Shown here: positions 14,499 through 52,125 of the stretch, in pieces
Numbering within the stretch: position 1 is the stretch's first letter
How the letters are laid out: the number at the start of each line of letters is the position of its first letter
NCBI RefSeq assembly: GCF_022458985.1
Contig: NC_061771.1
Span: 19,603,501-19,667,500, forward strand
Origin: Mugil cephalus
Taxonomy: Eukaryota; Chordata; Actinopteri; Mugiliformes; Mugilidae
Reading direction: 5' to 3'
Length of the DNA: 64,000 nt
Notes under the pieces: generated by a model
Seen by the model: only the letters and a program-made list of their open reading frames with translations
Database searches by the model: none
What the model was told of the DNA's origin: nothing
Position numbers and translations under genes: made by a program

Positions 14499-17431
14499 GC
14501 CAAACGCAGAGCTGCACAACGGAGACACAGGAGGCTGCAGGGTCTGAACGAGCACAGAGCCCAGAGCAAGTTGATCCGGAAAGCACAGAGCCAACTGAGA
14601 GACAGCTGGATTTACAGTTTTGGAGCAAACTCAAGCGTGAGAAGGGATCTGAATCCTGGGGACAGGTTAGTGCTCAAGTTTCACTCGCTCATTTGTTTCC
14701 ATTATATTTGGCGTTTACACTCAAAATCTGCAAATAAACCAGCTGCAGCAAGAGGAGTGAAAAGTAGAATATGCATGTATGAAGCTGAGCGAAGTGGTTA
14801 AAAATGGAAAGTTTGCAAACACAAAATTCGACATTCAAAATTCAATTTTATTTATATAGCGTCAAAAACAAGTTGCCTCAGGACGTTTGCATAACCTGGC
14901 CTGAAACCATATAAGATCATCAGTCACTGCACTTGATGTTATATTTGTAGTTGCGCTACCACAAATAACCCCCCGCACACAAAAACTTTAATGTAAACGT
15001 TTGTTGAGATTTGAGGTTTGTCACTGTTTGTGTTTAATCTGGTCCATGTGTTTTATTGTCAACCGTTAATGGTGCCTTCACTGTGTCAAATTCTGGAGGG
15101 AAAACAAAAAGACGTTCCCACATTAAAAACCCTTCCTGTTGATACAGTGTCAACTCCAGAGAGCAAATAAATGTTATCAGTGGACATTGAACCTCAGCTC
15201 TGGTTCACTGTTTCATAGAGCAACTACACTGGTGGTGTAAAAAAACAAAAAAACAAAAACAAAGAATAAAACGTGGAAAATAAAAATTTGTGTTGTTCAG
15301 TCAGTGAAGCTTTTTTTTTTCTCTCAGTTGTGATTTCATAAACATGACTTCAAATAATTTTTCCTTTGTCTCTCAACGGAGTTGGGTTTTTTTGTGTGTG
15401 TTTACCGGTGTGCTGTGCTGTTTTGTCCGTGACAGATGTTCAGATGCACCATCAGTCTTTAGAGGAACCGAAACTAATTGACACTTATTACATTTTTAGC
15501 CTTTTAAATTACAGCCTCGATGTCTGAGGGCGAAAAAAAAACAAGTCTGACATTCACTTGATTTTCTGGATTCCCAAGCAATGGAAACAAGTACGTCTGT
15601 AATTAAATGGAAAAAAAAAAAAAAAGCCCGCAGTCTCCTGAAAACTGTTTTATTCTAGTGTGTAACAAGATCATGTTCAGTTGAGTTCAGATCTAAAAAC
15701 ATCTTTGATACGAAGGAACAAGTTGAAATAGACACCATCAACAGGCACAAAAACCTGACGCACAACATACGATTCGCCCGAAAGGATTCACACATTTTTC
15801 CAATTATAATTATAGATCAGGTATATGGTGACTAATTATTTCTGTTTCTTTTTCGGCTGTAAGGCTGGGAATGGAGCCAACGCTGACAACTTCCCAACAC
15901 ACCTCCGTCCATTCAGTAGCCAAGCGGAGTATGAGCTAGTGAAGCACACGTACCAGCAGCTCCAACACAGCGGCTTCTACTGGGGGCCGATGGCCATGGA
16001 GGAGGCACATGACATACTCTCACGTGCACCGCTGGGAACCTTCCTCATCAGGTAATCTGCCTACTTATCTGCCCTGCGTGTATTCTATATTAAACGTAAC
16101 CTAGTGCTGTTTATAAATACACATTATTATTATTATTATTATTATTATCACTTTGGATTCAGTAGAGGGTTTGCATTGTTTTCACTGCCGCCCCCCCTGA
16201 GTCTCAACAACGTGGTGAAATGTGTCAGTAAATACAGCGAGACTGCGGAAAAATGTGGATTATCAGATCAAATTAAGGACAATTGGACTCAACGATGATC
16301 CACACGAACTAGTGTGAATTTGGAAACGTGGACTAGCTTCAGTTTCAGTTTGTTTCAGTTCGTTGATAAATGTAGCTAAATATAAGATGCTAACGCTAAG
16401 AGCTTTACTAAGAAGTAACATTAGCCAGGCGATACAGCCCTCCAGAACGTAACTTAAGAAGTAACTTAAGTTACGACTGCATCAAAAAAAAAAATACAGC
16501 GTAAATTAATATATAACCTGATGCTAAATGTGAACCACAACACCAGGTTTCAGTGCCTGGACTCCAATTGTTTCTTGGAAATGCAGTGACGCATTTACTT
16601 CTCTTTTGTAAAAATATATCTCTGACTGGTTTTCAAATCTCTTGGTTCAGTCAGTCGCACAACAGCTCGTCACCTGCTTTTTAAAATTAATTTTACAATT
16701 TAGACGCTACCAAAGCCTACGTTTCAAACTAATGCTGCTAATCTCCATGTTCAACTGTCACCTTTTGCCACTCAGTGGCCGTAACCATGGAGACTTTGCT
16801 AACTGTGACGTACCCTCTATATTAAGCCATCACTTATCCTTTTACTAAAATATGTTAGATTCGTGTTAATGTGTATTTGTTAAAGCCGTTAAAGCTCACC
16901 CAGTTCATTTTATTGAATTTACACCGCACATTCTTCTTCTTATTATTATTATTACTGATAATGTTTTATTATTAGTTTAACTTCCTCGTATCATATGTTG
17001 TCGTCCTGAACTGTGTCCTGCTGCACGGAGCAGGATGTCCGATTAAAAACATCACACAACTAGAATAAATGGCATGACGTGACGATATGTCGGTGTGCTG
17101 TTGCAGGGACAGCGGGCAGACAGATGTTTTCTTCACTCTGAGTTACCAAAGCGAAGACGGCCCCACGAGCGTTCGCATCCAGCTCAACAACCTGCACTTC
17201 AGTCTGTATGGAAGCAACAGAACTTTTGAGTCGCTCTTTGCTCTGCTCACTTACTACACCAGCTCAGCCTGCAAACTGACAGTGCCCTATCGCAGGCAGC
17301 GCCCGGAGCGGCTGAAGCAGATGTGCCGGAGGGCTTTTGTGCGCGCCTACGGAGCAGAGAATATAAGCACCGTACCTGAACACAGCCCTCAAATTAGAGT
17401 CTACATTAATGCGTACCCGTACTGTATATAG
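14462..17431 (+). CDS. socs1: Suppressor of cytokine signalling 1-type protein
   Basis: Coding exons 14462-14665, 15864-16051 and 17107-17431 give 238 residues with matching phases (0, then 2). The start ATG has A at -3 and G at +4 and opens MVRDSLDRTV. Residues about 79-94 form the kinase-inhibitory region: HLRPF keeps the His, Arg and second Phe of mammalian HFRTF, but Leu replaces the first Phe. The SH2 domain runs from SGFYWGP (about 104) through GTFLIRDS and GPTSVRI. A carboxy-terminal SOCS box follows, with a BC box LKQMCRRAFV and a Cul5-side VPEHSP stretch. It should bind and inhibit JAKs and recruit an Elongin/Cul5 ligase. The SOCS3-type insert is absent, which with GPTS favours SOCS1; it may be the fish paralogue socs1b. 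Mammalian SOCS1 coding sequence has no intron, whereas this has two. AU-rich 3' sequence follows. Confidence 0.88.
16121..16149. repeat. ATT microsatellite
   Basis: About nine ATT units in the second coding intron of socs1. Confidence 0.9.
16170..16826. repeat. Dispersed repeat, copy B
   Basis: Second copy of the repeat at 1205-1722, same orientation, inside the socs1 intron that splits the SH2 domain. It shares the blocks CCCCCCTGAGTCTCAA, AGATGCTAACGCTAAGAG and AACCATGGAGACTT. It holds extra sequence relative to copy A, including a poly-A run near 16485. Confidence 0.75.
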
Positions 17432-43600: not shown

Positions 43601-46600
43601 TGGCTCATTCACTTGATGTGCCTTCAAATGATTTACACTAAAAATTAACACTTGTGCCACCCATTGAAGTTGCAGCTTTCTATATTGTGTACATTTCTCT
43701 TTTAGTGGTGCTATATTCCTGTGCAACAAATGCCAAATTGTGTATATTTTGCTTGCTGCGGTTCAAACCACTTTAACAGAAATCAATTTCTTAGCTGCTC
43801 TGAGAATGGTAACCTACACATCAAGTTTGGCAGTTACTTCACTTAATGAATTTGTGACAAGGCGCGTACAAGTTGAACACTGCATTACTGTCAGCAGCAC
43901 GTGTAGTTTACAGCGTGATTGATGTACAGTATCCTATGCCATGGTATCGACATCCAAATGGTGTCTCAGGCATTACACTTAATTGGGACAAGGTCTGTAG
44001 TGGATTTATTAATCCTGCTTTGGAAGAAGCACTCACATTAGCATATTTAATCTGCTGTCATTCTACAGGTTTAAGTGTTGTGTGGGAAGTGCAGTGTGAA
44101 AACAGCACCATAAAGACAGCCAAGCATGGAAGCTGTTACCAAAATTATAATGAAGGGCTGCAGTACGTAGGCAATAGAAAGCGGCTTCTCACCCTTATAG
44201 AATACTCTTTTTCACCACATAATACCAATACCAATGGCTTTTCAGCATTTTAAGAATAACACAAAAAGGGGACATTTTATCTCCTGCCTCAATTTTTTTT
44301 TAATGAGAATTGTTTTTCAGACTGGCTCGGCTATGTGTGCATAATTAAGTACAAAATTGAAATAACAAAATTGTCTTTTTCTGCATTGAAAGCAATTAAT
44401 GATTTCTCTCTTCTGTTTTTCCCTTGTCTCACTTTTCCACCTCAACCTCAAAGGTTCTTCCAGTTGCACGGTTCATGAACAGCGGTCGTTTGAGCGGAAG
44501 GCAGAAGAGGATGATGGGAAAGTGAGTTTTTGGATGCCGCTTTGGTTCACTTCTGTTTGCTTCCAACAAAGGCATCTAACATGAGTTAGGGCGAGGTGTC
44601 TGACAGGATGCCAGAGATGCCACCCTGAGGATGGACATAGTGAGTGTGTCACCATGGAGACAGGCAGAGTGCCCCCCCCCCCACCCCACTCCATGTGTTC
44701 TAGAGCCAAGCTGGTTGCTGGGCGACGGCACTGTTTCAGTCAGAGAGGCCAAAGTGAACCAAGGTTGTAGCGTGTCCTCATTGGTTGGTATCTGACAGAA
44801 AGTCATTCACAAAATAAGCATTTTTTTAGGTGATTAGCCCAAAAAGTGACTTTGAATTTACACTTCCAACGAGAGCCTCAGCCCTTCCCATTTCTAGAAA
44901 AACATATACCTTTTGAGGGTTTTTTTTTTTTTTTTTCATTTCCCTTTCTGCCTGGGTGCAGTGATCTGAAAATCTGGCTAATTATTAATAGAAGGAATTC
45001 TATTCTCTTGTAGGTCCTACTATTAACAAACCCTTTAGAACATAAAGCATTATTGCATATTTTAGTAGCTGTATGTTAAGTAATTCTGAGCATAAATGTT
45101 GGTGGTACATCTCTTCCACTTTGAGAAAGATAGCAGGGTTTGTATCTATATCACTAGATGGAATAGTAGGGCTGCTCATAGGTAGGTAGGTAGGTAGGTA
45201 GGTAGTAGGTAGTAGGTAGGTCATAGGTAGGTAGGTAGTAGGTAGTAGGTAGGTAGGTAGTAGGTAGGTAGGTAGGTAGTAGATAGTAGGTAGTAGGTAG
45301 GTCATAGGTAGGTAGGTAGTAGGTAGTAGGTAGGTCATAGGTAGGTAGGTAGGGCTGGACCACAGACCACATGAACCAACTCTATTACTTGTTCCAGAGC
45401 CGATTCCCTTTCCTGGTAAGCTCTCCCTGTTTGTTCCCTATTTGTAGTGCAGGGTTAAGTGTGGACATTAACCCAGTGGTTATGCTGTTTTCTGGAATGT
45501 TTTTTTTTTTGTTTGTTTTTTTTGTTTTGTCTCCTGTGTTCTAGAAACAGCCCGCGTTCCGTGCTTCTAGAAGAAGAATGCAGACTCTTCTAGAAGCAGG
45601 CACTAGTGTTCTGCGCTCTAGAAGTCGACAGTAGTGCTTGGTACTCTGTGTACTAGAAGCAGGAAGTAGTGTTCTATGCTCTGTGTTCTAGAAACAGGCA
45701 GCAGTGTTTTTGCAGCAAGAAGTAGTGTTCTGTGTTCTAGAAGCAGGCACTAGTGCTCTGTGTTCTAGAAGCAGCCAGTAGTGTTCTGTTCTTTGTGTTC
45801 TAGAAGTAGGTAGTAGTGTCTGTGTTCTAGAAGCAGACAGTAGTGTTCTGTGTTCTAGAAGCAGGCAGTAATGTTCTGTGTTCTAGAAGCAGACAGTAGT
45901 GTTGGGTGTTCTACAAGCAGACAGTAGTGTTCTGTGATCTAGAAGCAGGTGGTAGTTTTCTGTGTACTAGAAGCAGGCAGTAGTATTATGTGCTCTGTGG
46001 TCTAGAAGCAGGCTGTAGTGCTCTATGTTCTAGAAGCAGTCAGTAGTGTTCTGTACTCTGTGTTCTGGAAGTAGGTAGCAGTGTCTATGTTCTAGAGCAG
46101 GCAGTAATGTTCTGTGTTCTAGAAGCAGACAGTAGTGTTCAGTGTTCTAGAAGCAGACAGTAGTGTTCTGTGTTCTAGAAGCAGGTAATAGTGTTCTGTT
46201 CTTTGTGTTCTAGAAGTAGGCAGTAGTGTTCTGTGTCCTAGAAGCAGGCAGTAGTATTCTGTGCTCTGTGTTCTAGAAGCAGGCAGTAGTGTTCTGTGCT
46301 CTGTGTTCTAGAAGCAGACAGTAGTGTTCTGTGTTCTAGAAGCAGACAGTAGTGTTCTGTGCTCTGTATTCTATAAGCAGGCAGTAGTGTCCTGTGCTCT
46401 GTGTTCTAGAAGCAGGCAGTAGTTCTCTGTGTTCTAGAAACAGTCAGTAGTGTTCTGTGCTCTGTGGTCTGAAGTAGGCAGTATTGTCTGTGTTCTAGAA
46501 GCAGACAATAGTGTTCTGTGTTCTAGAAGCAGACAGTAGTGTTCTGTTCTTTGTGTTCTAGAAGTAGGCAGTAGTGTTCTGTGTTCTAGAAGTAGGCAGT

Positions 46601-47511
46601 AGTGTTCTGTGCTCTGTGTTCTAGAAGCAGACAGTAGTGTTCTGTGTTCTAGAAGCAGACAGTAGTGTTCTGTGCTCTAGAAACAGTCAGTAGTGTTCTG
46701 TGCTCTGTGGTCTGAAGTAGGCAGTAGTGTCTGTGTTCTAGAAGCAGACAATAGTGTTCTGTGTTCTAGAAGCAGACAGTAGTGTTCTGTTCTTTGTGTT
46801 CTAGAAGTAGGCAGTAGTGTTCTGTGTTCTAGAAGTAGGCAGTAGTGTTCTGTGCTCTGTGTTCTAGAAGCAGGCAGTAGTGCTCTGTGCTCTGTGTTCT
46901 AGAAGCAGACAGTAGTGTTCTGTGTTCTAGAAGCAGACAGTAGTGTTCTGTGCTCTAGAAGCAGACAGTAGTGTTCTGTGCTCTAGAAGCAGGCAGTAGT
47001 GTCCTGTGCTCTGTGTTCTAGAAGCAGACAGTAGTGTTCTGTGCTCTGTATTCTAGAAGCAGGCAGTAGTGTCCTGTGCTCTGTGTTCTAGAAGCAGGCA
47101 GTAGTGTTCTGTGCTCTGTGTTCTAGAAGCAGGCAGTAGTGACGTGGCTGGGTGAGTTTCAGCTGCAGTTCTACACCACCCACTTCCTCACCGCGGGATA
47201 TGATCTAGACACCATTAGCTGCATGACCCCTGAGGTAAGGTCATGACCCCTGACCCCCTCACGCCCCGCCCCTTGTCTGTCAAGGCTCCGCCCAGCACAG
47301 CTCTCAGTTCAGCTCCCCACTGACCTGGATGATGTCATCATGACCCTCCTGTCTCTGTCACCTGACCCCCCGGTGTGAGTCCTGAGCCTCAACCAGTCAC
47401 TTCTCATACTGTGTCTGCTTCATTGACATACCTGTGTTCACACATGGCCATGTGTCCCAGTCTGTGCCGTAAACACTACTCTGTGTTTGTCTTTCAGTTC
47501 AGTTTAGTGCC

Positions 47512-47564
<53 letters not shown>

Positions 47565-50500
47565 TTTTGTGTACTGAAGCAGACACTGTGGTATGACGTA
47601 AACCCTCCTGAGGCCAGGGGACTCTCATCAGAGATTATCCTAGGCAAAATATTTCTGAAGGCTTATCACAACACATGTATGAAAGTCAAACTTGCAAATG
47701 GAACTGTTTACCTTTCGAGCGGAAAAGAACACCTGCAGCAGCGATGGTGAGTTAGTGTTTTGTTACCGGTTGGTGTGACTAAGTGTGCTTTGCGTTGAAG
47801 GACCTGACGGCGATTGGAGTCATGAAGCCCGGACATCGAAAGAAGTTAACGTCAGAGATCAGCAAGCTGCCCTCCACAGACTGGCTGCCAGACCACAAGC
47901 CTGTAAGGCTCTCATCTTTCTGTACACACTGGGGAGAAAGGGGGAAGATGTTCAGTTTTCTTTTTCTGATTGTTTAAACACCAGGCAGACAAGTGTGTAC
48001 ACATTAAGACTTTTAAGAGGCACCGGTTAGTAAAGAATATTAAAATCTTTAAATCTTTGTGTGTCCCTTTGTGTATTTCAGGCCAATCTAGCAGACTGGC
48101 TGTCTCACCTGGGCCTTAGTCAGTACTACCAGGTTCTGGTGCAGAACGGGTATGAAAACATTGACTTTGTCTCGGACATCAGCCTGGAAGACCTGCAAGA
48201 GATTGGCATTACAAAGCTCGGTAAGACACAGCTAAATCGTTAGGATGGAAACCAGGATTACGTAATGATGTAATGATGCATGGTAATCATAACTTTTTGA
48301 CAGTAACAAATGTTCCAAGACCTCGTCAGCCTGGAAACCGTGAACCCGTGGGGTTGTTTTAATGAGCAGACTGGTGCAGAACAGGGTCACCACAAAAAAT
48401 TAGCAAATTTCCAGGAAATCTTACTGTGCATTCCTACTAATTGCTGGAATCCCTCTTACCTAACTCTAAATATGGCTTCTTTCTGCCTCCCCTCAGGCCA
48501 TCAGAAGAAGATGATGCTGGGGGTGAAGAGACTGAAGGAGTTACAAAGAAAAGAAAGTGGCTCTGAGCCTCCCCAAAGCCCCTCCACACCCCCGCCCAGC
48601 CCAGGAGGCGGCACCGCCTCAGAGCCACGGAGGGAGGCGAGGAAGCAGAGGGACGGTGCCCCCAGCCCGCTGGCCAAACCCCGCCCAGGTCTCACACATT
48701 CCCAGACCCCTCCCCAAACCCCACCACAAACCCCTCCGCACGCACGCACCCAGCAGGCCTCCCCCAGGGCCCGCCCGCGCCCCTCCACCCAGACGGCGGC
48801 CGACGCGTCCGTGCCGCTGCTGCGGCTGCCCGGTGGGGAGGAGGAGCGACGCAGGACTCACAGTCTGATCGGCTCGGAGTCCGACTCTAGATACGCCACC
48901 GTGTGCCGCAGCAGCTCCACACATACCGCCCCCCCTAACGATGTCACTGTTAACCGCAGCCAATCTTCTGTCACCCTCCGTCCCCGCCGAAAAGGTCGAC
49001 CCCCGACGCCGCCTAAGCGGTCCTGTTCTTCCATTACCGGAGGCGACGGCGAGGGGGAGAGGCAAGCGGACGGGCTGCTAGGGCTGCCAACCTATCGGGA
49101 GCGGAGGGCCAGCGACTGCGGCAGCCTGGGAGCGGCTCTGAGAGCCCAGGACTCAGCGGGCCTGCAGAGATCAGAGGGGGCCTCTGGGAGCGTTCGCAGC
49201 CTCGCAGCCATGCTGGAAACATCCATCGTGGTCGGAGCCAAACCCATGCAGAGGAACATGGGGAGCAGCACCAACTACCTACAGGTGTGTCTCTGTGAGA
49301 AGTGGATTTTTTCGTTTTTAAAATGTCAGCGATATGCATGCGTAACGACCATGTGACCCGCAGGTCAGCCCGCCGCTTCTCCGTCGGCAGGACGGCGCGG
49401 GAGGTATAGGATCTGAGGAGGACGACGTTTTGAGTCGGCGCAGGACCATCAGCGGGCTCGAAGGCCTCCCCGGCGACGCCGCCGACCAGCTGCCCCGGCA
49501 ACACGTCCAGCAGCGCCCCGAGCCCCGTCCCCGCTCCACCGTGGTCACCTCGGCGTCGGAGATCACGGACGGCACGGCGACACTCCGGAGGAGGCCGCGT
49601 GCCCCGGCAACGGAGCCCGAGCCGCCCGCACCGTCGCCCGCGGCCACCACCGTCGTCACCATGACGACCGGCACCGACACCATACGCAGGAGGCAGCGCG
49701 CGTCCGACCACGCGGAGCACGTCGTTCAAAGCAATAACCGGCCGGATTCGCCCGGCAGCCCGATGGACGGCGGCCGCAAAGGCGTCGGCGAGCCGCAGCA
49801 GAACGGCGGCGTGGTCCTGAGGCGGCGGCCCGTGTCCGAGGTCTCCGAGAGGACGGAGGGCAGCAGGGAGAGCTGCGAGTGGATGGAGGCCAGGAAGTCT
49901 CTGAAGCCGCCGGTCTCACCCAAACCATCCACAGTCAGCCTGAGGAAGACGCAGGCTGACCCCCCGACCCCGACTCGCAGGGTCCCCATACCCGGGCCCG
50001 ATAACGCCGACACGGCACAGAGTCCCGGTGAGATACACACAACACAATATGGAAATCAATTTTAATCACTATCACTATAAAAATGACCTCACATAGGGCT
50101 GTAAAAGGTTATAATCGTCTTTATGTGGTAGAAACAGTAGAAATATATGCAGCCATGTCTCATAATGGTTTAAGCTTGTTACATATATAAATATAATACA
50201 TATATATGAAAACTGTGGGTGGTACACAACAGAACACAAAGTTTATAACAGATGGCCATTATATAAAGCTATAGTGTTGTTATTTGTGAGACTGGATCGT
50301 TTAAAATAAATGTGTGATAGTTAAAGCTATTTGTTTGAGGAAGCTGCAACTGGAAAACTTAGCAACTTTATGCTTTTATATGATAAAAGAACAGTGATAT
50401 TAAGTCTGACGAACTGACGGTGCCGTTCTTTCTTCCCAGAGCTGAAGCGTGTGCCTCCTCCCGTATCCCCAAAACCCCGCGGGCCTCCGACAGCACCCAA

Positions 50501-52125
50501 ACCGGGAAAAGCAACCGTGGCTTCAGCTGCCGTGAGCCCGAGCCCTTCTGCTACCAGCCCGGCTGCATCCAGCCCGACTCCAGCCCCGAGACCCTCTTCC
50601 CCCACCTCCGCCGCCCCTCTACCGGCGCCCGACGCTCCCTCCGCTCCCTCCCTCTCCCCGGGCCTCCCTCTCGCTTCCCCTTCCCCGGCCCAGAGCCCCT
50701 CCACCCCTTCGCCGCACCCCGTCAAACCTCCCCGCTCCTCCATCGCGGGCCTCTCCATCGACCTGCTGGGGGGGGGGCGGGAGGCGGAGGAGGAGGAGGA
50801 GCGGAGGAGAGAGAGGGAGCACAAGGAGCAGGAGGAGGAGAGGAGGAGGGCTGAGGACAGGAACCTGAGGGAGCGGCGGCAGGAGGAGGAGGAGGAGGAG
50901 AGGAGGAGGGCTGAGGACAGGAACCTGAGGGAGCGGCGGCAGGAGGAGGAGGAGGAGAAGCCCTCGAGGAGGGAAGGGGAGAAGGAAGCGGAGGGTGGAG
51001 CGGGAGAAGAAGCAGAGCAGGGGGGGGAGGCTCAGCATCGTCTGGAGGAGACCAGCGCCTCATTGGCCGCGGCGCTGCAGGCTGTAGAGCACAAGATCCA
51101 CGAGGAGGACACAGTGAACGAGTGAGTATCCGCGAAGTTCATGTTGAGACGTGTGACAACAACAATATTCTGTCTAAAATAATTATGATGGAGAGATCAC
51201 AACACAAATTATATTAACTGTCTTTTACGAACTATAGACATCACAGATTACACAAATAGTTAATCACATTTTTATCCAAGAGGACGATGAGAACATCGGT
51301 TCCTCTTTCTCTGGAGTCGCACTGTAGTTAGCCTAGCTTAGCATAATGAGTGCAATGCGGGAAGAAAGAGCATGAAGGTCACCAGCATTGATGAAAATCA
51401 TAAATACATTCACAAAGCTGAGTCAGCGAGAGGTAGCAACTGGAGTCCTCACCCTGAATGGGGGTATTATGATTTATTTCTCTGAACGCATGTTTTGTAC
51501 CGTCTCGTCTGTCAGCGCGGCCTTTTGTGCGTACGCAGCAGAGCATTCGACGGCATGTTTTGCCAGTGTGACAATGAAAAGCTCTAATGCCTCAAAGCTC
51601 GAAGGTAAAAAAACAAGAATGTGTGGTTTCAACCATTTCTTGTGAAACCTCGGCTGGGTTCATCGGGCTGCGCTCACCAACCACGTCTGCAGAAAAAGCA
51701 GACGAAAGCAAGTAAAAAAGGGGGTTTCAAAAAAAAACATTTCTTTCAGGGGCGAAAGTCGGTTACGACTCCGCAGGAACATTTACGCCGCTAAAGTTAG
51801 GTATTTCGCACAGTAGTAAATAAATTGTAACATAATCTTGAAGTTGTATTCCTTAAAATCTCAAACTGAAGGCGGCATTAGCTTAGCATTAGCATCTGAG
51901 ATGAAGAGATAGATAGATTGACTCTGTGACTGTCAATAAAAGAAATGTTTAGCTCCTTCCACGTCTCAATTCCTCGACTGTGTCGGCCTCGTTACCAGCT
52001 AAACTCTTAACTTCTGCCCAACCTCCAGCTCCCTCCCCGGCAACAAGGCGACCGTCTCCATCTTGGACGACATCGGCAGCATGTTTGACGACTTGGCGGA
52101 CCAGCTGGACGCGATGCTCGACTGA
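21201..52125 (+). CDS. caskin1: Caskin1, CASK-interacting synaptic scaffold
   Basis: The 21 coding exons are 21201-21294, 29517-29568, 30995-31092, 33388-33533, 33654-33749, 34490-34611, 36113-36221, 36651-36759, 37098-37192, 38277-38391, 40280-40378, 40471-40655, 41910-41991, 44454-44521, 47127-47234, 47801-47902, 48082-48220, 48497-49284, 49364-50027, 50440-51121 and 52029-52125. They total 4050 bases (1349 residues plus stop) with every junction in phase. Human CASKIN1 is about 1431. Domains: ankyrin repeats (about 30-275), SH3 (about 280-345), CASK-binding motif EDIWVLRKP (368-376), tandem SAM domains (about 491-620), a long Pro/Ser/Arg-rich region, and the conserved end [19 protein letters not shown]. 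The protein binds CASK through its CaMK domain, and the SAM domains polymerise in neuronal scaffolds. Three donors are unusual: GTCAGT after exons 1 and 5, GTCCGA after exon 6. Confidence 0.95.
21315..21362. repeat. AC/GC alternating tract
   Basis: Alternating CACA and CGCG right after caskin1 exon 1. It is potentially Z-DNA forming and, with the GCGC tract near 20700, brackets the first exon. Confidence 0.85.
21698..21743. repeat. GT microsatellite
   Basis: About 22 GT units in caskin1 intron 1. Confidence 0.9.
21744..27325. other. caskin1: caskin1 intron 1, no exon seen
   Basis: The 8.2 kb first intron (21295-29516) has a pyrimidine-rich block at 21990-22260. The remainder has open frames of 60-190 codons on either strand without splice context or family match. 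Around 26380-26490 there is a GC-richer island whose plus frame reads [20 protein letters not shown] do not recognise it. Confidence 0.4.
22613..22637. repeat. AC microsatellite
   Basis: About 11 CA units in caskin1 intron 1, with CA-rich flanks. Confidence 0.8.
27330..27515. repeat. Common teleost dispersed repeat
   Basis: Contains the landmarks GCCAATTAACCTAATGAGCA, GTGGGAGGAAGCC, AAACTCCACACATTC and finally CTAACCGCTGCACCACCGTG CCGCC. This is a very frequent fish repeat module. Only this truncated copy is seen here. Confidence 0.65.
27830..28110. promoter_or_regulatory. caskin1: Candidate noncoding regulatory stretch in intron 1
   Basis: Non-repetitive AT-rich motifs such as AAATTATCATAAATAATGTG and ACATTATGGTAATGCTCGC lie between G-rich runs. 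This resembles conserved neural enhancers with homeodomain-type sites. It is a suggestion only; conservation was not tested. Confidence 0.2.
28599..28625. repeat. AC microsatellite
   Basis: About 13 CA units in caskin1 intron 1, followed by a short A-rich stretch. Confidence 0.9.
29517..36759 (+). CDS. caskin1: caskin1 exons 2-8, ankyrin-repeat block
   Basis: Seven exons encode about six ankyrin repeats. Signature strings are [85 protein letters not shown] and [19 protein letters not shown]. Exon 4 ends with Gly where the human protein has Val (GHYDG versus GHYDV). A short segment of the human protein after the fifth repeat (GDAT) is missing. The exon 6 donor is the weak GTCCGA. Confidence 0.93.
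29905..30330 (+). repeat. CCTCATATGAGGACG dispersed repeat, copy 1
   Basis: Starts CCTCCTGAGACCCTGCG with the palindrome CCTCATATGAGG, then GCTTGTTCTGCTTTATTTAG, CGAAGGGTCAATACACTTGC and CTTATTTAACTTTTCTA. Two more copies are at 58420-58760 (same strand) and 62860-63145 (opposite strand). No coding capacity is seen. Confidence 0.75.
33544..33568. repeat. GT microsatellite
   Basis: Follows the donor of caskin1 exon 4 by ten bases, in a short 120-base intron. Confidence 0.85.
34171..34238. repeat. AGAAT pentanucleotide repeat
   Basis: About 13 units of AGAAT, followed by GTCCTTATTGTCATTAGACA, a sequence common at fish retroelement 3' ends. It lies in a caskin1 intron. Confidence 0.9.
37098..38391 (+). 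CDS. caskin1: caskin1 exons 9-10, SH3 domain
   Basis: Two exons joined in phase 0 encode the SH3 fold from [20 protein letters not shown] to [15 protein letters not shown]. The usual ALYDY appears as ALKDY, in line with the atypical ligand surface known for caskin SH3 domains. Exon 10 ends in phase 1, which allows either direct joining to 40280 or inclusion of the candidate cassette exon at 38965. Confidence 0.93.
38965..39261 (+). CDS. caskin1: Candidate caskin1 proline-rich cassette exon
   Basis: The segment has acceptor GTGTCCAG, donor GTACAT, a length of 297 bases (99 codons), and phase 1 at both ends. That is exactly what is needed to sit between exons 10 and 11 without shifting frame. 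It is open throughout and reads [12 protein letters not shown], then [19 protein letters not shown], then [12 protein letters not shown], then a run of nine prolines before [11 protein letters not shown]. The run comes from a CCT microsatellite (39179-39231). Such a segment next to an SH3 domain could be an internal ligand or an SH3-partner site. I cannot tell from sequence whether it is constitutive, alternative or unused. Confidence 0.5.
40280..40655 (+). CDS. caskin1: caskin1 exons 11-12, CASK-interaction region
   Basis: Exon 11 contains [13 protein letters not shown]. The acidic-hydrophobic-WVxR pattern (E368, I370, W371, V372, R374) is the known docking motif for the CASK CaMK domain, shared with Mint1. 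Exon 12 continues [18 protein letters not shown] and ends QAEGVK, matching the human order GGDRSGS ... EGVK, before LLATVLSQ in exon 13. Confidence 0.92.
41045..41275. repeat. Retroelement 3'-end-like fragment
   Basis: Includes GGAAAAATACTTTGTTCATC and CCCCTGGGGGAAATTCAA, a motif I know as the 3' end of widespread fish LINE-type repeats. The rest of the element is not recognisable. Confidence 0.5.
41910..44521 (+). CDS. caskin1: caskin1 exons 13-14, linker
   Basis: Exon 13 reads [27 protein letters not shown] is conserved with mammals. Exon 14 (44454-44521) reads [20 protein letters not shown] and ends GK in phase 0. The intron between them hosts a DNA transposon at 42470-43312. Confidence 0.85.
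42470..43312. mobile_element. Non-autonomous DNA transposon with terminal inverted repeats
   Basis: GGCATAACATTATGACC at about 42478-42494 is exactly mirrored by GGTCATAATGTTATGCC near 43290-43306, framing about 840 bases without a transposase. It lies in caskin1 intron 13. The GGTCATAATG end links it to the fragment at 6650-7330. Confidence 0.75.
45179..45353. repeat. TAGG/TAGTAGG microsatellite
   Basis: An imperfect array of GTAGGTAG-type units with periodic TCATAGG interruptions, forming a higher-order pattern. It lies in the caskin1 intron just before the candidate microexon and the minisatellite. Confidence 0.9.
45398..45415 (+). CDS. caskin1: Possible caskin1 microexon (18 nt)
   Basis: A pyrimidine-rich stretch ending TTACTTGTTCCAG precedes AGCCGATTCCCTTTCCTG, followed by the good donor GTAAGC. 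It encodes SRFPFL, phase 0 on both sides, and would fit between exons 14 and 15. Neuronal genes often use such microexons, but nothing here proves use. Confidence 0.25.
45541..47140 (+). repeat. caskin1: Splice-acceptor-derived minisatellite in caskin1 intron 14
   Basis: Roughly fifty units of 28 or 35 bases. The core is TTCTAGAAGCAGGCAGTAGTG, given here in two parts as TTCTAG plus AAGCAGGCAGTAGTG, preceded by GTTCTGTG with an optional CTCTGTG. The final unit is the real acceptor and the first 15 coding bases of exon 15 (47127-47141, KQAVV). The first unit follows a long T-rich tract ending CTCCTGTGTTCTAG at 45544. Every unit therefore carries a potential 3' splice site. The array has no unique spacers. 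Confidence 0.9.
47127..48220 (+). CDS. caskin1: caskin1 exons 15-17, tandem SAM domains
   Basis: Exon 15 (47127-47234) opens [18 protein letters not shown] and continues [10 protein letters not shown]. Exon 16 reads [20 protein letters not shown] and ends SAM1 at WLPDHKP. Exon 17 begins SAM2 with [18 protein letters not shown] and reaches [12 protein letters not shown]. The match to human CASKIN1 is close. The exon 15 acceptor is the last unit of the minisatellite at 45541-47140; a second in-frame acceptor six bases on (47132) would drop KQ. Confidence 0.92.
47512..47563. repeat. GT microsatellite
   Basis: About 24 GT units in the intron between the two exons that encode caskin1 SAM1. Confidence 0.9.
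48497..52125 (+). CDS. caskin1: caskin1 exons 18-21, proline-rich and C-terminal part
   Basis: Exon 18 completes SAM2 ([16 protein letters not shown]) and starts a Pro/Ser/Arg-rich disordered region with conserved islands such as [18 protein letters not shown] and KSI/LAAMLE-type strings. Exon 19 carries [17 protein letters not shown] and KPPVSPKP motifs. Exon 20 has more PPVSPKP repeats, a Glu/Arg-rich duplicated helix and [16 protein letters not shown]. Exon 21 encodes [20 protein letters not shown] and ends with Asp before TGA. The local GC content is far above that of the introns. Confidence 0.92.
50831..50950 (+). repeat. caskin1: In-frame 60-bp tandem duplication in caskin1 exon 20
   Basis: Bases 50831-50890 and 50891-50950 are near identical. 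Each encodes 20 residues containing [18 protein letters not shown]. The surrounding 200 bases are almost entirely GAG/AGG-type codons, giving a long charged helix. Confidence 0.9.

Follow-up and report, generated by a model that had tools for sequence, protein, structure and literature searches.

A minisatellite of tandem splice acceptors in front of the SAM1 exon of a predicted caskin1 gene of Mugil cephalus

Boundary minisatellites as the closest described systems

Tandem repeats of intron-exon boundaries, called mirages, have been described in amphioxus (PMC3087553, available in part). For the Adh3 and globin mirages, RT-PCR suggested that regular splicing was undisturbed, according to the accessible text of that paper, and the portion available of PMC3902484 reports the same of the Adh and troponin C mirages. 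As described in the available parts of both sources (PMC3087553, PMC3902484), their unit spans the junction and carries a splice signal, with the real junction at one edge, as in the array presented here. The inner units of the mirages are homogenised while the edges are left out, and the unit of the Adh3 mirage measures 10-72 bp, a range that covers the 28 nt of the caskin1 unit (same parts of PMC3087553 and PMC3902484). Structures of this kind were already known from the boundary minisatellites of amphioxus. The caskin1 array differs from them in that it occurs in a vertebrate, another phylum-level group, and has no canonical branch point. It comprises about 50 units, compared to 3 and 6 in two BflGb6 haplotypes of amphioxus, as far as the accessible text gives them. 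The same text lists similar imperfect repeats in PGBD5 beside the amphioxus mirages.

A minisatellite at an exon edge reportedly yields several splice donors in an interferon-induced transcript (6-16 type), as a 1995 paper, available in part, is said to describe. As far as that part goes, this minisatellite likewise multiplies one splice signal, but the signal is a donor, whereas the caskin1 array multiplies acceptors. In duplicated human genes, internal tandem repeats at exon-intron boundaries can also alter gene structure as boundary repeats; they have on average 4 units of 30 bp and are said to form novel introns, and the accessible part of this account describes no acceptor array (PMC2812944). 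Exons with a distant branch point share with the present case a branch point far upstream, but, in the available text of PMC1431707, they have an AG-free stretch, whereas the caskin1 array contains 242 AGs in 45540-47140. The open-licence literature searched yielded no vertebrate acceptor array, let alone one of about 50 units in which a single site is productive and canonical branch points are lacking, which does not imply its absence from print.

The host gene and the anatomy of the array

The window, meaning the whole stretch of 64,000 nucleotides that was analysed, carries the array in a gene which its predicted protein domains identify as caskin1, the assignment made in the original prediction. 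The CASK-interaction domain (Pfam Caskin1-CID) was found in two joined window pieces (6.8e-25); this domain of Caskin1 is missing from CASKIN2, according to the accessible part of PMC4994250. Exons 15 and 16, once joined, match Pfam SAM_1 (2.1e-15), and a second SAM lies downstream (2.4e-16). In the PDB, four distinct sequences matched at E <= 1e-20, all of them SAM domains of Caskin-1 and Caskin-2, with Caskin-1 narrowly ahead (122 vs 118.6 bits). The score of the Caskin proline-rich model (36.8 bits) exceeds its cut-off, and that of the Caskin tail model falls just short of its own (34 vs 35 bits). The predicted exon piece expected to encode the SH3 of caskin1 gave no Pfam match. The exons that frame the array are the following:

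44454-44521, + strand: exon 14 (predicted, as is its 5' end), whose translation ends in ...EEDDGK, followed by gtgagt, phase 0
47127-47234, + strand: exon 15, 36 residues, first part of SAM1, with the donor GAG then gtaagg
47801-47902, + strand: exon 16, 34 residues, remainder of SAM1

Exon 15 is 108 nt long with phase 0 at both ends, so its skipping would stay in frame and drop only half of SAM1.

One relative, P0001 (79 residues, from a 980-base contig), was obtained as the one match among two candidates. It begins M-A-W-L-G-E-F and then reads through the donor into the intron. Compared by eye, it shows a single change in 30 residues from W to E (R for C) and shares 42 of 43 residues with the window intron frame 47247-47378. 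The initial M could stem from an alternative start codon translated as M, so that P0001 gives no firm information on the codons before A-W, and it does not cover the array. P0001 had no relative in viral_contigs or genome_contigs. The C of SAM1 at 47220-47222 stands where the Caskin-1 and Caskin-2 chains and P0001 have R (TISRMTPE), and the M at 47822-47824 where the Caskin-1 and Caskin-2 chains have T (GVTKPGH). Relaxed constraint or polymorphism are possible reasons for both.

Two other observations were made in the window. At 50824-50957, a 60-nt unit is repeated 2.2 times at 98% in an E- and R-rich open stretch upstream of the Caskin-tail match. At 15816-17428, two open stretches resemble a SOCS1-type gene by eye, and the two pieces tested from them gave no Pfam match.

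The organization of the array itself is as expected from the original prediction of a minisatellite of about fifty units before the SAM1 exon, each made of the acceptor and the first 15 coding bases of exon 15, with the last unit running on into coding sequence.

45536-47141, + strand: minisatellite array, about 50 units, mostly 28 or 35 nt
46485-46873, + strand: recent block duplication, 146 nt identical at a 243-nt shift (46485-46630 = 46728-46873)

Each unit consists of an acceptor, typically CTGTGTTCTAG, or a degenerate one, and of exon-derived sequence (15 nt in the consensus). The array is a minisatellite-like tandem repeat with a splice signal and part of an exon in its unit (TCTAG plus AAGCAGGCAGTAGTG), as in the mirages, and its last unit joins exon 15. 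TRF describes it as a 28-nt unit in 45.9 copies at 45726-47141. A 24-nt core, GTGTTCTAGAAGCAGGCAGTAGTG, has 44 matches with at most 3 mismatches, all on the + strand and all within 45585-47141, none of the 44 lying elsewhere in the window; 100 shuffles gave a mean of 0.00. A looser fit (at most 9 mismatches) gave 49 unit starts, with 41 of the 49 rows measuring 28 or 35 nt. Four rows run longer, to 49, 54, 61 and 58 nt, and each includes a further, often degenerate copy; the final unit is the extra copy inside the last of these four, which brings the total to about 50. This last unit (47118-47141) is a perfect core, directly continuous with ACG TGG CTG GGT GAG of the SAM1 exon.

Divergence from the core drops towards the right (Spearman -0.46, p 0.001), with mean mismatches by thirds of 2.6, 1.5 and 1.6; a single out-of-register unit with 9 mismatches counts towards the last of these values. 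The intron-side copies are the most diverged, which fits the leftward expansion originally proposed, with old copies pushed to the left. The longest identical blocks measure 146 nt (shift 243), 85 nt (shift 313) and 77 nt (shift 278), and all start at or beyond 46281. Older-looking copies thus lie on the intron side, and recent block growth lies in the middle and on the exon side. The 146-nt block and the fall in divergence fit internal homogenisation, yet the unit at the exon-side edge is a perfect core and not a diverged one.

On present evidence, the array is a tandem expansion of the caskin1 intron-exon junction. The last-unit codons AAG CAG GCA GTA GTG encode K-Q-A-V-V, and in the alignment to solved structures the Q-A-V of the unit aligns with QAI of Caskin-2 and EAV of Caskin-1. 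The DGK that closes exon 14 likewise falls opposite EGK in the Caskin-1 chains. Because of these two alignments, the second half of the unit looks like ancestral coding sequence rather than a foreign repeat landed beside the exon, the main limit of the argument being that the match spans three codons. To look for the repeat in further species, the antisense ORF of the array (80 aa) served as a query and gave 837 candidates, none at E <= 0.001, and the 26-nt unit (R at one base) had no match in viral_contigs. The junction DNA matched no phage record, and Rfam gave no match up to E 0.1 over 44400-48000.

Splice signals and motifs along the array

Forty-four exact TCTAG acceptors are present in the array, and 43 of them reach a stop at codon 2-37 (phase 0). 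When all AGs of the array are considered, only three of the 242 (47126, 47129 and 47132) give an open in-frame exon; they are spaced 3 nt apart and all lie within the last unit. That the last unit alone opens the exon, as first proposed, is thus found for one of 44 TCTAG sites and three of 242 AGs. The stop anticipated about 30 codons after unit 1 is also there: used as an acceptor, unit 1 meets its first stop at codon 30 (zero-based codon 29), in an exon which would be 1690 nt long. The two ends of the array are:

45498-45544, + strand: T-rich tract and leftmost acceptor (unit 1), TCTCCTGTGTTCTAG, with an AG exclusion zone of 68 nt
47118-47126, + strand: end of the last acceptor, GTGTTCTAG, the sole TCTAG acceptor opening SAM1 in frame

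The splice matrices used are approximations, and their bit scores are only rough. On this scale the last acceptor scores 7.97 bits, compared to 5.78 for the exon 14 acceptor and 3.25 for that of exon 16. It ranks 7th of 242 AGs with ties, and 11 of the 44 TCTAG sites (itself counted) score at least as much, four TCTAG sites reaching 10.38 bits. A better sequence as the mark of the last acceptor was therefore rejected, and nothing at the site itself marks it out, since 10 other TCTAG sites score as high or higher. Unit 1 had been credited with the best polypyrimidine tract; it ranks 5th of the 242 AGs on the rough matrix, under four units ending TTCTGTTCTTTGTGTTCTAG, and not first. Its AG exclusion zone of 68 nt is the largest among the 44 TCTAG sites (median 16 nt).

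Among donors, that of exon 15 scores highest in 45540-47240 (10.63 bits), followed by one of 8.24 within exon 15; the exon 14 donor reaches 8.76 on the same rough matrix. Those donors inside the array that are among the eight best in the region score 7.3 (one unit), 6.17 (two units) and then 4.62. The array thus does not carry a donor in every unit in the manner of the 6-16 type, its best being 7.3 vs 10.63 for exon 15. The unit at 46178-46190 reads CAG then GTAATA, a fair donor of 7.3 bits at 46184. Use of this 46184 donor could conceivably create a small cryptic exon, or serve a recursive splice step, within the array.

The array contains 72 TGTTCT, 32 TGTGTT, 42 GTAGT and 103 TAG motifs. 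CELF sites are UGU-rich, and TDP-43 sites are UG repeats. No TGTGTG occurs in the array, so a TDP-43 platform inside it is unsupported; of the CELF/TDP-43-type platform suggested earlier, the CELF-type reading stays possible on motif content. A (TG)24 tract lies in the next intron (47514-47561), 280 nt past the exon 15 donor. One more tandem repeat lies upstream:

45179-45353, + strand: TAGG-rich tandem repeat (33 TAGG), about 180 nt upstream of the array

Its motif is presumably of the hnRNP A1 type. The motif TTCTAGAA occurs in 36 copies in 45545-47140 (22.6 per kb), compared to 0.03 per kb elsewhere in the window. This motif forms part of the heat-shock element; a reading of the copies as heat-shock elements was rejected, since inspection by eye did not find the three-part spacing of a full element.

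Selection of the productive acceptor

The locus is best described, at a probability of roughly 0.6, as a mirage-type array in which exon definition and a non-consensus branch point select the last unit, with some use of decoys or skipping. The 3' junction of exon 15 (the intron end and the first five codons) would have been duplicated in tandem, and duplication of units and of blocks would have brought it to about 50 copies, leaving behind at the far left the branch point and the T-rich tract that are presumed to be ancestral. The real exon now lies 1.6 kb further right, preceded by 43 similar TCTAG acceptors that all lead to early stops. Together with the nearest acceptor or acceptors, the donor at 47234 would define a short exon of 108 nt, and the branch point would be a non-consensus A in gcAGtAGtg of the preceding unit, about 23-26 nt upstream. 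The last unit would mostly be used, and some transcripts would take decoys and decay, or skip exon 15 in frame. Exon definition is favoured because the amphioxus mirages are reported to splice normally and no donor in 45540-47240 outscores that of exon 15. That the SAM1 exon is kept open in the close relative P0001 also counts in favour of this reading. The changed R and T in SAM1 stand against it, as they could mean less constraint, with SAM1 often not made, and so do the 10 other TCTAG sites that equal or outscore the last acceptor and the lack of a TNA over the 411 nt before it. The original prediction of transcripts losing the SAM domains stands in part: decoy use would lead to an early stop, but both SAMs need not go, in-frame skipping of exon 15 removing half of SAM1.

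The distribution of branch-point motifs suggests a different outcome.

45471, + strand: sole YTNAY branch-point-like A (ATTAACC) of 45401-47126, before unit 1

From this A, the AG of unit 1 is 73 nt downstream and the last AG 1655 nt downstream. Within 15-60 nt, YTNAY precedes none of the 44 TCTAG sites, compared to 0.579 of the 1898 YAG sites in the rest of the window; within 15-100 nt it precedes only two (base rate 0.797), by position unit 1 (73 nt) and 45570 (99 nt). TNA is present within 15-45 nt of 10 of the 44 sites (base rate 0.889) and within 100 nt of 20 of them (0.989), these low counts being partly one fact repeated many times over, since the units are copies. No TNA occurs between 46715 and the last acceptor, which leaves 411 nt upstream of that acceptor without one. 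The last acceptor also lacks an AG-free stretch from branch point to acceptor, its zone being 22 nt in an array of 242 AGs. In comparison, the exon 16 acceptor has no YTNAY within 60 nt, just TNA, and an AG exclusion zone of 17 nt, while both motifs are present at exon 14. A weak branch motif is thus not unusual for caskin1 here.

With its branch motif at 73 nt, its T-rich tract and its 68-nt AG exclusion zone, unit 1 appears laid out like a distant-branch-point acceptor. Since the sole YTNAY lies before it, unit 1 is where a linear scan for AGs would be predicted to end, with poison splicing as the result: the 45471 branch point and the T-rich tract would direct splicing to its AG (45544), most transcripts would carry the stop at codon 30 and decay, SAM1-bearing caskin1 would be minor, and array length may set the dose. 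The exon so formed would measure 1690 nt, which is long for vertebrate exon definition, and caskin1 output would fall strongly. We regard this course as rather unlikely: it has on its side the linear-search rule for the choice of AG from the branch point, in the available part of PMC1431707, and against it the exon still open in P0001 and the normal splicing of the amphioxus mirages, as given in the accessible text of PMC3087553.

Exon 15 might instead be mostly skipped, exon 14 joining exon 16 in frame with loss of the first half of SAM1 and retention of SAM2. The length of 108 nt in phase 0-0, the absence of a canonical branch point near the exon and the alteration of two SAM1 residues common to Caskin-1 and -2 agree with this. 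Against it, the exon is open, no donor of the region scores higher than its own, and the exon 15-16 join matches Pfam SAM_1; predominant skipping is quite improbable.

Hairpins of neighbouring units, in which TTCTAGAA self-pairs, might hide the decoys and bring the far branch point near the last acceptor. The region 46300-47130 does have a much better fold than 20 whole-stretch shuffles (z -6.98), but it is unexceptional beside tandem arrays built from shuffled units: 21 of 200 such arrays with the 28-nt unit and 51 of 200 with the 35-nt unit fold equally well or better. The last acceptor is also about as closed as the decoys under two settings, with a value of 0.042 in the first (44-site median 0.025, mean 0.057) and 0.010 in the second (median 0.006, mean 0.023). 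The hiding of decoys as a selected structure was rejected, as the z of -6.98 fades against shuffled-unit arrays, and hairpins are a very improbable means of choosing the site. That the repeats were invented or multiplied by the assembler is just as improbable: tandem arrays are error-prone and one draft-genome mirage is reported as aberrantly assembled (PMC3087553, available in part), but the differences between units are ordered, the left being more diverged, several identical blocks stand at different shifts, and the window is without N, although the copy number could still be wrong.

A further consequence would concern dosage. It is distinctly unlikely, though a little less so than predominant skipping, that the 43 poison acceptors without canonical branch points, placed between the sole consensus branch point and the one productive acceptor, make the unit number, which probably varies between individuals, set the amount of SAM1-bearing caskin1. 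If true, array length would tune a switch to unproductive splicing in a gene for a synaptic scaffold. The locus bears on the old question of how one acceptor is chosen among many alike, by scanning from the branch point or by exon definition. It would offer a natural test, with 44 TCTAG acceptors in a single intron, a reading-frame readout, the last alone productive and no canonical branch point between. Boundary minisatellites, described in amphioxus in the literature consulted, would also extend to a vertebrate-type synaptic gene.
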